From Peptoclostridium acidaminophilum DSM 3953 (lineage in GTDB: Bacteria > Bacillota > Clostridia > Peptostreptococcales > Peptostreptococcaceae), in NCBI RefSeq assembly GCF_000597865.1, contig NZ_CP007452.1, positions 1,619,183 through 1,683,182 on the forward strand: a stretch of DNA of 64,000 nucleotides. The letters run 5' to 3'. Within the stretch, counting starts at the first letter, position 1. Each line of letters starts with the position of its first letter. Under the pieces are notes generated by a model. The model was not told the origin of the DNA. It ran no database searches and saw only the letters and a list, made by a program, of their open reading frames with translations. The position numbers and the translations under genes are program-made. Positions 34,738-63,655 of the stretch are shown in pieces.

Positions 34738-35012
34738 TAAAAAATCCCAAGCCATAACGACTTGGGACGAATATTCTCGCGGTACCACCCAAATGAACAG
34801 ACCAAACCAAGCATTTTTATAAAATGCGCCTCAAGTCTGACACTTTGTATGGATTTAACGCATCCACTATCGCAAAGGCTTATTCTCATAACGATTTCAG
34901 CCTTCGGGCTCATAGGTGATATTCATGCACTATATGCTGACAGCCTTCCACCGAGCGGCCGCCTCTCTAAAAACATCTTCACTGCACTACTGTCCTAATC
35001 CAAGCCTTTGGT
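34738..35012 (-). ncRNA. T-box leader of ileS
   Basis: On the minus strand the conserved T-box GGGTGGTACCGCG (34779-34791) is followed by a terminator CCCAAG / CTTGGG plus T run (34745-34767). Upstream is a stem I region with AGTA-type and GGCTGTCAGC-like elements and a candidate isoleucine specifier ATC in GAATATCACC. Uncharged tRNA-Ile binding would favour the antiterminator and allow ileS transcription. It fills the 34.7-35.0 kb gap. Confidence 0.9.
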
Positions 35013-50235: not shown

Positions 50236-50299
50236 CGCGAACGCACATTCACAAAGCTCTATCCGGAGATTTCCTTTGGAAACCCGGCGTGCCTTCCGA

Positions 50300-50465
50300 T
50301 TCTCAATAGCTCTCCACTCTCGCGTGACAGTCCTGCACATGTTCTATGCAGTCCCAATGCATGGCCTTAAAGCGTCAGCCAGGCATTTCGGCAACAATTC
50401 CTTTCCCATGGCCTCACTGTGCTTAACTCAGTCATGGTACTCTTAAATGCTGCACCTCTACTTTT
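50300..50465 (-). ncRNA. Lysine riboswitch (L-box) aptamer
   Basis: Minus-strand order matches the lysine aptamer: AGAGGTGC at the 5' end (near 50460), AAGAGTA, GGGAAAGGAATTGTTGCCGAAATGCC for the core, CTGGCTGACGC, then GGACTGTCACG and GGAGAGCTAT at the 3' side. A terminator follows. High lysine should stabilise the terminator and shut off the NhaC-type transporter gene. Confidence 0.92.
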
Positions 50466-50600
50466 GAATCTCAGTTTAACAGATTTTTCAGCAAGAAGTC
50501 TCTCGCCTCTATTTGTAACGTAGGTAACGAGATTAATTGCTAATTTTTTATACTTTTCTTAAAAAATTAAAAAACCATGGTTTATGAACAAATAATCGGG

Positions 50601-55793: not shown

Positions 55794-55830
55794 GAAAATA
55801 CAATTTTCTATTGCATCGCGCGTCACGATA

Positions 55831-55945
55831 TATTGCTTCTCCCATCCAGACTCTGACTGTCGGCACTGGAATTACACCAGTTCAGCCTTTTTCCAAGGCT
55901 CGCGGGCTATACCGCCGGTAGGGAATTTCACCCCTCCCCGAAGAA
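55831..55945 (-). ncRNA. FMN riboswitch (RFN element)
   Basis: The minus strand shows the RFN landmarks: TTCGGGGAGGGGTGAAATTCCC, then ACCGGCGGTATAGCCCGCGAGCC, CTGAACTGGTGTAATTCCAGTGCC and GACAGTCAGAGTCTGGATGGGAGAAG. FMN binding should promote the terminator and repress ribD-ribE-ribBA-ribH. Confidence 0.95.
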
Positions 55946-55970
55946 AATATTTGCTATTCAATTATGTTAC

Positions 55971-60245: not shown

Positions 60246-60265
60246 GGCACCGCATTAGCGGTGCC
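60246..60265 (-). terminator. Terminator after the Sec-rhodanese gene
   Basis: Perfect stem GGCACCGC / GCGGTGCC with loop TAAT, followed by TTTTTTGC on the minus strand, 8 bp beyond the rhodanese TAG stop. Its position supports the reading of the gene through the TGA. Confidence 0.92.
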
Positions 60266-60272
60266 GATAAGA

Positions 60273-61247
60273 CTACTTCGCCATAGGCATACTCTGGTCT
60301 GCAGACCATTCGTATATAGAAGCTTCGTAGTTTCTAACTTTTTCAAAGCCAACGGCTCTGAGGATCGAGGATACATATCCTGATCTTATACCCATTGTTC
60401 AGTAAACAACAAAATCATCTTCAGGTGTAACGCCTGCAGCCGCCATTATCTCCTTGATTTCCTCCGGAGACTTTGGAGTTGCATTTTCATTTAGAAGATC
60501 ACTCCAAAGCAGCCATTTTGCTCCCTCTATGTGGCCTCCTCTGGCTTCGCCTGCATTCTGGCTTCCCTTGAATTCTTTTTCTGTTCTAACGTCTATTATC
60601 ACAGTCTTATCAAGGTTTTCCTGCACATATTCCTTTGTTGCTCTGTAGCTATCGTCAAAGTCCTTGAGCACCAGACCTGTCGAAGGCGCCGGTGCTGGCG
60701 ATTGATCTTTTGTGATGTCATAGCCAAGCTCCTTCCAGTATGCCAGTCCTCCGTAGAGAAGCTTGACATTGTCAAGGCCCGCCATTCTCATCTGCCACAG
60801 GTTTCTTCCGTCCGGTCCGGGACCTGTAAGAACGTCAGAGTAGAATACTACAGTCTTGTCGTTTGTAACTCCGAACGACTCAAGCTTCTTTGTAAGCTCC
60901 TCCTTGTCCAGAGAAGTTCCCCAAAGAGGATCTCCCGGCTTGCCCTCGATCTTTGAGAAGCTGTGGAAGCCTGCGCTTATTGCGCCTGGTATGTGTCCTT
61001 TAGCGTAAGCATCCGGCTTGTTGCCATCGAATATTATAACGTTTGGATCATCCAGCATTCCACTTAGCTCCTGTGGAGTTATGAATATGTCTGAATTCTC
61101 AAAACCCGAAAGGTCAACTTTTGCTGCTGATTCTTCAGGCTTATTTGTCTCTTGCGCAGGCTGCGATGCGCATGCGCTCAGCACGAGCATCATTGCAACA
61201 AGCAGTGCGGCAAGAGAAAAAAGTTTGTTTTTACGCACTTTTTTCAT
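60273..61247 (-). CDS. Lipoprotein tandem rhodanese with in-frame TGA at the catalytic cysteine (Sec283), candidate selenoprotein
   Basis: A secreted sulfurtransferase-type protein. The N-terminus has a lipobox LVLSAC (Cys26), so it should be anchored outside the membrane. Two rhodanese domains follow (about 45-175 and 185-324). The first lacks a Cys in its active loop (VFYSDVLTGPGPDG). In the second, DDFVVY is followed by TGA (60399-60401), then TMGIRSGYVSSILRAVG and 24 further residues to TAG, then a terminator. Rhodanese loops read CxxGxR, so TGA occupies the catalytic Cys. A possible SECIS stem (GATC-AGGAT / ATCCT-GATC, loop ATGT) lies at 60363-60385. AAGGAG touches ATG 61247; GTG 61238 has better spacing. 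Confidence 0.85.
60363..60385 (-). promoter_or_regulatory. Candidate bacterial SECIS stem-loop in the rhodanese gene
   Basis: On the mRNA, GATC-AGGAT pairs with ATCCT-C-GATC around ATGT, starting 14 nt after the TGA with its loop about 23 nt downstream. Bacterial SECIS elements lie immediately 3' of the UGA and carry a G near the loop start. Stem, distance and G fit in outline; thermodynamic fit was not computed. Confidence 0.5.
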
Positions 61248-61941
61248 CTCCTTCTTTTAAAATTTTTTTTGCATTTTTTTCATCCCAAATCTTTTTGAAC
61301 ATGAATATGAGTACGCTCAGCGAGAAGAGTGTGAGAAGTCCAATCACAAACATCTTTATTCCCCCGGAAAGCATTTCCCCGATGTAAGAATATATTATTG
61401 TTGCTGGAAGCTGTCCAAGCCCTGTCGCCCAGAAGAACGACCAGAAGCTCATTGATGTCAATCCTGCCGCATAGCTTACAATGTCAAATGACATGAACGG
61501 CAAAAGTCTGGCTACCAGTATCGCATACTTGCCGTATTTTTCGAAAAACCCGTCGACGCTTTCGAGCGCGAATTTGCTTGTGAGCTTTTCCACAGTGCCT
61601 CTTCCATAGAACTTTGCTATATAAAAACAAAGTGCGGCTCCGGCCATGGCGCTAGACCATGAAAGCAGCGCTCCCTTGACCCAGCCAAAAAGACTCGCAT
61701 TGGCAAAGGTTATAAGAAATGCGGGAAGCGGCGCCATTACGGACTGGAATACCATGAGCAGGAATGATACCGTCGGCGCGAGTATACCGAAAGAATTTAT
61801 GTATCCCTTCACAAGCCCCACATCCAGGTTTCCCATTATGAAAAATGCCTGCTTTACGTTCCTTTGTACAGGCTCTGCAAAAGCGTACACAAGTGCGATC
61901 GCCAGTATTATTCCTATCTTTAAATATGTTGATTTTTTCAT
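61231..61941 (-). CDS. TVP38/TMEM64 family membrane protein
   Basis: A DedA-like/SNARE-associated membrane protein of 236 residues. About five or six helices and the family core are visible: APLPAFLITFANASLFG, WSSAMAGAALCFYIAKFYGRG, and the RLLPFMSFDIVSYAAGLTSM motif with its re-entrant-type loop. It overlaps the start of the rhodanese gene by 17 bp, so the two are cotranslated. TVP38 proteins have been linked to transport of small anions or lipids in various bacteria; co-occurrence with an extracytoplasmic rhodanese suggests a sulfur- or selenium-related job, which is inference. Confidence 0.88.
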   Translation of the reverse strand: MKKSTYLKIGIILAIALVYAFAEPVQRNVKQAFFIMGNLDVGLVKGYINSFGILAPTVSFLLMVFQSVMAPLPAFLITFANASLFGWVKGALLSWSSAMAGAALCFYIAKFYGRGTVEKLTSKFALESVDGFFEKYGKYAILVARLLPFMSFDIVSYAAGLTSMSFWSFFWATGLGQLPATIIYSYIGEMLSGGIKMFVIGLLTLFSLSVLIFMFKKIWDEKNAKKILKEGDEKSA

Positions 61942-62509
61942 ATAGCCACTGTCCTCCTGTATTTACTGTTGATACCATACCTCAATAATCCTCAAAGTCT
62001 GCTTGTCACAAGTGCTTCGTTGGATCTGTATGTGTTTGTTTTGTAATTCCATGAATCATTATAGATAATATTTATGCATTTTACAACGACAATTCTCAAT
62101 AATTACCATTTGGGCATTTGCCAACAATCCTCGTTTTTTGTTTTATTGTTATTTTATTATCTATTTGTGTTCGTTTTTACTTCGGTTAAATTATGCATAT
62201 CTACTCATTTGTGCAGCCCTGCCTTATAGGTTTTTACTGCCATTTGTTGATTTGCCGACATTTTCAGCATGTTTTTATTTCGAAGCCCCTCCTCAATTCC
62301 ACATATTTACATCAATCCTGATGGCGTCATTTGCCATGCGTCTTCCGCTTTGACATTATGTTTTTCTATCGATGCTTGTTTTGTTATGAATTATTTCAAT
62401 ACAGGCATTGAGGTGCTGTATTGTCCCCCCGAAAGATGATAGTATCTATATGAATGACTGCTCACATTTTAAATTTAACGAGTTGCTCCTGAAAGGACGG
62501 ATACACCAG
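61942..62509. other. Divergent intergenic region, 568 bp
   Basis: AT-rich stretch between the divergent TVP38 and Fe-S protein genes, holding the promoters of both. An 11-bp inverted repeat CTTGT-C-ACAAG lies at 62002-62012, about 60 bp before the TVP38 gene, and could be an operator. No RNA family, terminator or reliable coding sequence is visible. A reading frame at 62138-62353 lacks a ribosome binding site and protein-like composition. Confidence 0.5.
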
Positions 62510-63655
62510 ATGACAACATTTAATACACCTGAAAATATAAAGCAAAAGTCGCTCGAATATGAAATGAGATGCATAGACTGCAGGGCCTGCATGAAGAACT
62601 GTCCCATGCTCGATGAGTTCTGCACATCGCCAAAGGAGCTTCTTGGCCGCATAGGCTCAGCTGACACTCAGCCGCTGGAGCTTCCCTATTCATGCTCCCT
62701 CTGCCAGTACTGCGCAAGAGTGTGCCCAAGGGACATAGATTTTTCAGCGCTATTCCATCCGATGAGAGAGCATATAGTAGCTTCAGGGAGTGTAAGCTCC
62801 AAGCCTCTGTCCAAAGGGCTCTCAGTAGTTGCAAACCACCAAAAGCTGAGTTTTTCTAAGGTTTTCTCCTCCAGCTTCCCAAAAGCTGGCAAAAAAGCAA
62901 AAACGGCCTTCATCCCGGGCTGCAGCCTGGCATCATACAGCCCTGAGCTTGTAATTTCATCCCACAAATATCTTCAAAGAAAAATCGGGGATGTAGGCCT
63001 TATAATCCAGTGCTGTGGAAAGCCAACACTTTCAGTGGGTGACTTGGAAAAATTCAGCGACTACTACTCCCGTCTTGAAAAGATGATGGACAAAATGGGC
63101 TGTGACACTGTAATAACGTCGTGCCAGAACTGCTACAAGACCATAGCTAAATACAGCCCCCATATAAAGGTAGTATCACTTTGGGAGGTTATGGCAGACC
63201 TTGGGGTTCCCGAAAAGGCAGCCGGCGTCGGACGCGGCATAGATGCCATGTTTGCGCTGCACGATCCGTGCCCCACTAGAAATGTAGCCTCCATGCATGA
63301 AGCCGTAAGAGAAATAGTCCGTCAGCTCGGCCTAAATATGGTAGAGTTTGAAAGCAACAGGTCACTCACAGCCTGCTGCGGCCAGGGCGGTATGATAGGC
63401 CTTACAAGTCCCAAGCTGGGTGTAAGGCAGATGAAAAAAAGAGCCTCCGAAGGAAAGGAAGCCGACTATATAATAACTTACTGTGAATCGTGCGTTGAAT
63501 CCATGCAAAGCGCCGATGCAAAATCGCTCCACATACTCGACATTGTATTTGGGGATAATTTTGAAGGCAGGGATTTGAACCAGATAAGACCAGGCTTTGC
63601 TGGCAAGTGGCTCAACAGATACAGGATAAAAAGGCTCACAGACAGGCTGGATTAG
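62510..63655 (+). CDS. Fe-S protein with two CCG domains (HdrD/GlpC-like)
   Basis: Cytoplasmic electron-transfer protein of about 381 residues. N-terminal 2[4Fe-4S] ferredoxin domain: Cys21, 24, 27, 31 (CIDCRACMKNC) and Cys62, 65, 68, 72 (CSLCQYCARVC). Two CCG cysteine-rich domains follow: PGCSL, CCGKPT and SCQNC; then DPCPT, CCGQGG and YCESC. CCG domains bind special clusters and often handle thiols/disulfides, as in heterodisulfide reductase. ATG 62510 (MTTFNTPENI) is preferred over 34 additional upstream codons that show no homology; a GAAAGGA site lies 12 bases away. Adjacent flavin and rhodanese genes are suggestive. Confidence 0.88.
   Translation: MTTFNTPENIKQKSLEYEMRCIDCRACMKNCPMLDEFCTSPKELLGRIGSADTQPLELPYSCSLCQYCARVCPRDIDFSALFHPMREHIVASGSVSSKPLSKGLSVVANHQKLSFSKVFSSSFPKAGKKAKTAFIPGCSLASYSPELVISSHKYLQRKIGDVGLIIQCCGKPTLSVGDLEKFSDYYSRLEKMMDKMGCDTVITSCQNCYKTIAKYSPHIKVVSLWEVMADLGVPEKAAGVGRGIDAMFALHDPCPTRNVASMHEAVREIVRQLGLNMVEFESNRSLTACCGQGGMIGLTSPKLGVRQMKKRASEGKEADYIITYCESCVESMQSADAKSLHILDIVFGDNFEGRDLNQIRPGFAGKWLNRYRIKRLTDRLD

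Follow-up and report, generated by a model that had tools for sequence, protein, structure and literature searches.

A predicted selenocysteine-containing tandem rhodanese lipoprotein encoded beside a VTT-domain membrane protein in Peptoclostridium acidaminophilum

Annotation by standard rules ends a rhodanese-like protein of Peptoclostridium acidaminophilum at an in-frame TGA, after 282 residues. Two questions arise from this locus: whether the TGA is an ordinary stop or a selenocysteine (Sec) codon and, in the latter case, what an enzyme carrying Sec at this position would do. The gene lies in a window of 64,000 nucleotides (C1:1619183-1683182), by which the whole stretch of DNA analysed is meant, in a genome made up of a 2,246,262-base and an 808,774-base replicon. 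A published account of Eubacterium (Peptoclostridium) acidaminophilum DSM 3953 describes a chromosome of 2.25 Mb and a megaplasmid of 0.8 Mb and counts 8 predicted selenocysteine-containing proteins, with no mention of a rhodanese (PMC4056300). The features needed to follow the reading frame are given below.

60273..61247, minus strand: putative Sec-rhodanese lipoprotein gene (tandem type), with 324 codons counted from the ATG when the TGA is read as Sec
60399..60401, minus strand: in-frame TGA (codon 283) in the column of the catalytic Cys
61236..61238, minus strand: GTG, probable alternative start, nine bases behind AAGGAG
60246..60265, minus strand: intrinsic terminator, a stem-loop with an 8-bp perfect stem followed by a T run

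An interrupted frame and its relatives

The minus-strand frame runs from ATG 61247 through 282 codons to the TGA and continues for 41 codons to a TAG (60273-60275), as the first-pass annotation had described, perfect terminator included. Since ATG 61247 directly abuts AAGGAG and the GTG lies nine bases behind it, the GTG is the likelier start. The loop around the interruption reads Y-TGA-T-M-G-I-R-S-G. The best sequence match among solved structures is the Thermus rhodanese 1uar (5e-29), and the ungapped loop alignment places the TGA on its loop Cys, which we take to be catalytic.

Relatives were collected by a contig search (9 loci) and from 61 related genomes (46 of which gave a match at E 0.001), 391 genomes of the organism's own class, 398 of its own phylum, 296 from the phylum that includes an Aquicultor genome and 45 from the family that includes a Desulfosporosinus genome, the larger groups being sampled. 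This yielded 21 full-length orthologues including the window protein, one per genome, with 53-100% identity and from both Bacillota and Actinomycetota. Each of the 21 contains exactly one TGA, in the same column (in the alignment of G015 a second stop precedes the start codon, leaving one UGA within the protein), followed by 41 residues (40 in one), and the loop is uniformly Y-U-T-M-G-[IM]-R-S. The sample of 391 own-class genomes held no further Sec orthologue; four other genomes in it gave TGA-free matches at E 1e-50 or better. By comparison, all 14 aligned homologues of 32-38% identity have Cys at this column, in a Y-C-T-x-G-I-R-S loop, which together with 1uar bears out the earlier claim that the TGA replaces the catalytic Cys. 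When 52 rows were placed in a tree, one side of a branch with a support of 100/100 held the Sec proteins, with a single change of label. Six of the genomes (G001, G012, G015, G023, G032 and G055) also encode a TGA-free homologue of 34-40% identity, and the loops inspected in the first five of these are of the Cys type.

Partial copies were left out of the 21. Two of them are second copies of the C-terminus of the Sec rhodanese with the TGA, one contig-internal (L093, G753:C5) and one at a contig edge (L033/L080, same MAG, G001:C23). In Desulfosporosinus sp. BG (G445; L032/L092), the copy ends before the UGA, with the gene of the VTT-domain protein described below still upstream.

Purifying selection acts on the segment behind the TGA, where dN/dS is 0.07-0.36 in nine hand-chosen pairs. 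A chance TGA is very unlikely, because 20 other full-length orthologues carry it in the same column and the sequence after it is under purifying selection, and a sequencing error is unlikely, because the nearest named relative, a separately sequenced MAG of the same genus Peptoclostridium (91% identical), has the same TGA. The simplest rival reading, namely that the TGA is an ordinary stop and the gene encodes a rhodanese that is truncated at 282 residues or in decay, agrees with the standard annotation and with the truncation of the G445 relative before its UGA. Nevertheless, the retention of the TGA, the frame and the downstream sequence in 21/21 full-length proteins, under purifying selection, leaves it with a negligible probability. 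TGA closes 5 of the 46 raw ORFs of at least 200 aa in the window: the present gene, one clear case and three that other ORFs overlap. This tells little about the use of TGA as an ordinary stop. Judged from sequence comparison, the window gene almost certainly encodes a real selenoprotein with Sec inserted at the TGA, and standard gene calling, in taking this codon for a stop, cuts the protein at residue 282, within the active site.

Selenocysteine machinery and the hairpin behind the UGA

The genome holds the machinery that such a reading needs, as the first-pass annotation had proposed checking: selD, selA, selB and a tRNA-Sec gene (anticodon TCA; the selC of that proposal) are clustered at about 1177743-1182418 of C1. 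A SelB match over the cut-off was found in all 21 genomes with the Sec form. SelB was also tried as a discriminator between the Sec and Cys forms and was present in 30/30 genomes, of which half (15) carry the Sec form; it is required, yet uninformative for Sec versus Cys, because the 15 other genomes have it too.

UGA recoding by SelB and tRNA-Sec would use a hairpin just behind the codon, and a candidate lies there.

60363..60385, minus strand: SECIS-like hairpin, columns 17-39 (column 1 being the T of TGA), beginning 14 nt after the TGA

Over 15 distinct sequences, columns 17-39 can form a 9-pair hairpin in which 94.1% of cells are paired, against 22-43% for slid versions of the same hairpin. 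In the window alone the signal is modest against dinucleotide shuffles (z -1.31; 22/200 as good) and reaches z -2.14 against synonymous recodings (a fraction of 0.026 as good). When bases 13-45 of every gene were compared with 1000 synonymous recodings each, the mean z was -2.18 in the Sec genes (n=21) and +0.54 in the Cys genes (n=14, these being the Cys homologues aligned first, without those found later). The two sets of values do not overlap (one-sided p 4e-7, a value that is too small as the rows are related), the weakest Sec gene being orthologue G479 with z -0.58. An earlier run over a longer stretch, with 14 Sec and 14 Cys genes, had given mean z values of -1.86 and +0.20, respectively. 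Furthermore, the third bases of invariant residues vary less over the first 17 codons behind the UGA, with a mean uniformity of 0.75 in 10 columns against 0.58 in the 67 columns outside that stretch (p 0.005). Covariation is limited: pairs 21-34 and 24-31 are changed on both sides in 5 cells, which 0/500 shuffles reach, and the number of doubly changed pairs, two, is reached by 106/500 shuffles. Taken together, these comparisons point to a SECIS-like hairpin conserved across the Sec orthologues, in line with the stem that the first-pass annotation had put forward.

Bacterial SECIS elements are expected to carry a G among the first two loop bases, a rule from which the window hairpin departs, the loop of its MFE fold being AUGU. 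An outer SECIS helix joining columns 5-10 with 47-52 was rejected, as pair 6/51 fails in 7/15 sequences and pair 9/48 in 8/15; RNAalifold proposes a different outer extension, which is almost invariant. Third bases 13-18 codons after the UGA (CTC, GTT, GGC, TTT; 60348-60362 in the window, and in the orthologues) are nearly fixed and lie outside the hairpin. At the Rfam gathering score, SECIS is not listed in the window, where only the following three riboswitch or leader elements are found.

55830-55949, minus strand: FMN riboswitch
34760-35011, minus strand: T-box leader
50299-50468, minus strand: lysine riboswitch

Architecture, location and known relatives

60729..61079, minus strand: N-terminal rhodanese domain (Pfam), in which Ser137 matches Sec283 by a reading of the strand-loop pattern
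60300..60635, minus strand: C-terminal, presumably catalytic rhodanese domain (54.5 bits), with the TGA inside it
61170..61181, minus strand: lipobox LSAC with Cys26

Pfam thus recognises two rhodanese domains in the window protein. An AlphaFold2 model built from 20 sequences (pLDDT 88.2, pTM 0.84) is closest to tandem thiosulfate sulfurtransferases, with 3p3a, the mycobacterial CysA2, CysA3 and SseA, 1uar and 1rhd among the first 18 Foldseek rows. The two domains, the fold and the loop position are shared with these enzymes (1uar, CysA2/CysA3/SseA and bovine 1rhd), which differ in having Cys where all 21 proteins have Sec and show 23-30% identity in the named Foldseek rows. The likeness suggests at most that the window protein works like a tandem thiosulfate sulfurtransferase with Sec in place of Cys.

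The lipobox reported in the first pass is a conserved trait. A lipobox-like Cys occurs in 21/21 proteins when the start codon is picked freely among the first 40 residues; 17/21, the window protein included, match strict G+LPP, the pattern for a Gram-positive signal peptide with a lipobox, and the other four have [AG]-C after a hydrophobic stretch. The Sec rhodanese is, by these signals, very probably an extracytoplasmic lipoprotein. An additional Cys near residue 65-90 is present in 14/21 (within an aligned DCNKP in nine of those), while the window protein and six others are without it. Cys26 of the lipobox is the sole Cys of the window protein, so an intramolecular selenosulfide in its mature form is unlikely. 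The first-pass annotation had further called an exported selenoenzyme unusual; the conserved lipobox upholds the location, but the rarity was overstated, as available extracts describe ExtKL of Geobacter as a periplasmic cytochrome and predicted selenoprotein (PMC6148476, PMC5877670).

The accompanying statement that rhodaneses use Cys is incomplete, since Sec rhodanese-like proteins are published, to go by the available extracts (PMC1088965, PMC2398784, PMC9312934, PMC13188914). These extracts list three Sec rhodanese-related sulfurtransferases under COG2897, one of them named in a SECIS figure (PMC1088965, from 2005), a Sec rhodanese under cd01449 with a count of 8 (PMC2398784, from 2008) and several Sec rhodanese-like forms, including UxxG forms 2 and 4 (PMC9312934, PMC13188914). 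Sec in a tandem-type rhodanese is, in other words, already published and not new. Form 4 (COG2897/cd01449; PMC13188914, PMC1088965, PMC2398784) likewise combines Sec, as UxxG, with a tandem-type rhodanese; the extracts mention neither a membrane anchor nor a VTT partner for it, and this comparison by description is compatible with one clade as well as with two. The literature searched, the coverage of which is incomplete, gave no account of a membrane-anchored Sec-rhodanese clade or of its VTT partner, and an earlier mention is possible. No listed NCBIfam model reaches its cut-off for the window protein; membership was rejected for ExtH (NF040901, 43.9 against 200 bits), MST (NF008557, 73.1 against 250 bits) and the rhodanese-related (seleno)protein LYCAU (NF041203, form 3; 35.5 against 115 bits).

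Closer at hand, the same bacteria encode tandem rhodanese lipoproteins of the Cys type, which have a lipobox-like Cys, the same domains and a YCTxGIRS loop, and differ from the Sec type in their Cys, the lack of the hairpin, the opposite order of the neighbouring genes and an identity of 32-38%. The Sec type forms a clade of an exported enzyme over two phyla, with Sec in all 21 found members where the fold normally has Cys, and the Cys-type homologues in several of the same genomes offer a natural experiment on what selenium contributes to rhodanese chemistry.

The VTT-domain partner and the proposed chemistry

61231..61941, minus strand: gene of a VTT-domain membrane protein, immediately upstream and sharing 17 bases with the rhodanese frame (counted from the ATG)
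61627..61629, minus strand: codon of VTT Cys105, conserved in the partners of Sec and Cys rhodanese lipoproteins
62058..62086, minus strand: promoter-like site upstream of the VTT gene, a consensus match only (10 of 12 matches; 8 sites of that quality found against 4.6 expected)

In 18/21 Sec loci the gene immediately upstream, in the same orientation, encodes a VTT protein (only the end of the gene being visible in L028). At the other three, one gene stands between (G023) or none was found (G032 and G012, over about 300 bases for G012). In the Cys-type loci the VTT gene is directly downstream in 8/14; the rhodanese/VTT pair is retained despite the swapped gene order. Cys occupies the column of window C105 in 17/17 aligned partners from Sec loci, 11 of which have no other Cys. 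A partial census of 80 distinct VTT-like ORFs, mostly from 20 genomes (two of the immediate neighbours come from G031 and G021), found Cys at this column in 18/19 ORFs that adjoin a rhodanese lipoprotein of the Sec or Cys type; the remaining one (L076, residue I) has no Pfam VTT match and was discounted. The corresponding figures were 1/6 for ORFs near but not adjacent and 9/53 for those elsewhere with a residue there, two further rows that are not near being gapped; one of these nine (L179) is next to a different rhodanese, which has two domains and whose start is lipobox-like. The Cys is a trait of a subfamily and not the outcome of 18 independent events. A functional link between the Sec rhodanese and the VTT protein is likely on this evidence. 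Fusions of a VTT/DedA membrane domain with a rhodanese are known as well (P. aeruginosa PA1209); the available extracts describe a single fused protein, with no mention of Sec, in contrast to the separate genes found here, and term the link to the lipid carrier unclear (PMC10127716, PMC12893004). With its conserved VTT neighbour, in which one particular Cys is retained, the Sec rhodanese opens the DedA-rhodanese link to testing.

The reading that we favour on balance, taken as a whole, is that of a lipid-anchored tandem rhodanese with Sec283, partnered by the VTT protein and engaged in sulfane-sulfur transfer outside the membrane. After export, a lipid attached to Cys26 would tether the protein to the outer face of the membrane, where Sec283 would serve as the nucleophile of the C-terminal rhodanese domain, jointly with the membrane protein encoded upstream. 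Its selenolate may pick up sulfane sulfur from extracytoplasmic thiosulfate, polysulfide or persulfide to give Sec-S(-), the sulfur of which would then be handed to an acceptor. Sulfane-sulfur chemistry is the somewhat better bet, the reaction and donor being our inference; the loop residues do not name the donor. As a tentative and rather doubtful extension, the two proteins might form a chalcogen relay, in which sulfane sulfur or selenium passes between the outer Sec283 and VTT Cys105, crossing the membrane or loading a lipid-linked substrate; if true, a VTT/DedA-type protein would have a part in sulfur handling, and the DedA-rhodanese fusions would be accounted for.

It is unlikely that the selenolate instead acts at the surface on selenite, selenide or tellurite, by binding or reduction, as proposed for the ExtH operon. 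ExtH of Geobacter (NF040901), which available extracts present as another rhodanese-family lipoprotein (PMC6148476), is a weak relative of the window protein (43.9 bits, E 1.6e-11) and belongs to an operon of selenite/tellurite reduction, and deletion of its neighbour extI is described there as impairing the reduction of both oxyanions (PMC5877670, PMC6148476); bovine rhodanese is likewise cited, in the extract at hand, as making selenopersulfide from selenite and glutathione (PMC10298544). Nevertheless, the score of the window protein is far under the 200-bit cut-off for ExtH, and the neighbours that were scanned with Pfam, which are some of those present, include no cytochrome or porin genes of the ExtH-operon type.

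Redox roles are common among predicted selenoproteins, as an available extract puts it (PMC9312934). This would suit a surface peroxidase or thiol/disulfide exchange enzyme on a rhodanese scaffold, as would the frequent preference for Sec in reactions with oxidants. Such a role is quite improbable, however: the rhodanese shape of the loop is retained, and a selenenic acid formed in the window protein or its six nearest relatives would find no second Cys in the mature chain to resolve it. More improbable still, and by a wide step, is a service of the rhodanese/VTT pair in arsenic or arsenosugar-type metabolism: genes matching TIGR04283 and TIGR04282 lie near the Sec gene in L027, ArsS (TIGR04167, 433.5 bits, cut-off 300) occurs in L135 and ArsR-like and ArsP genes are found near L071 and L072, but none of them was seen to adjoin the window gene, and the wider surroundings vary between genomes.

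Some neighbouring genes are recorded in their own right. Cys-type VTT genes stand beside arsenosugar-type genes in L135 (G1081; ArsS TIGR04167) and L138 (G010; TIGR04169, TIGR04283). The smaller replicon of the window genome carries a second Cys-type VTT gene (L137, G000:C2:551500-555800), with no adjacent rhodanese lipoprotein recognised. A divergent gene at 62408-63655 of the window encodes CCG and 4Fe-4S domains; its cluster recurs near 5/23 compared loci, and two members of the cluster match part of NF045663 ("diclust_near_Sec"), below the cut-off.
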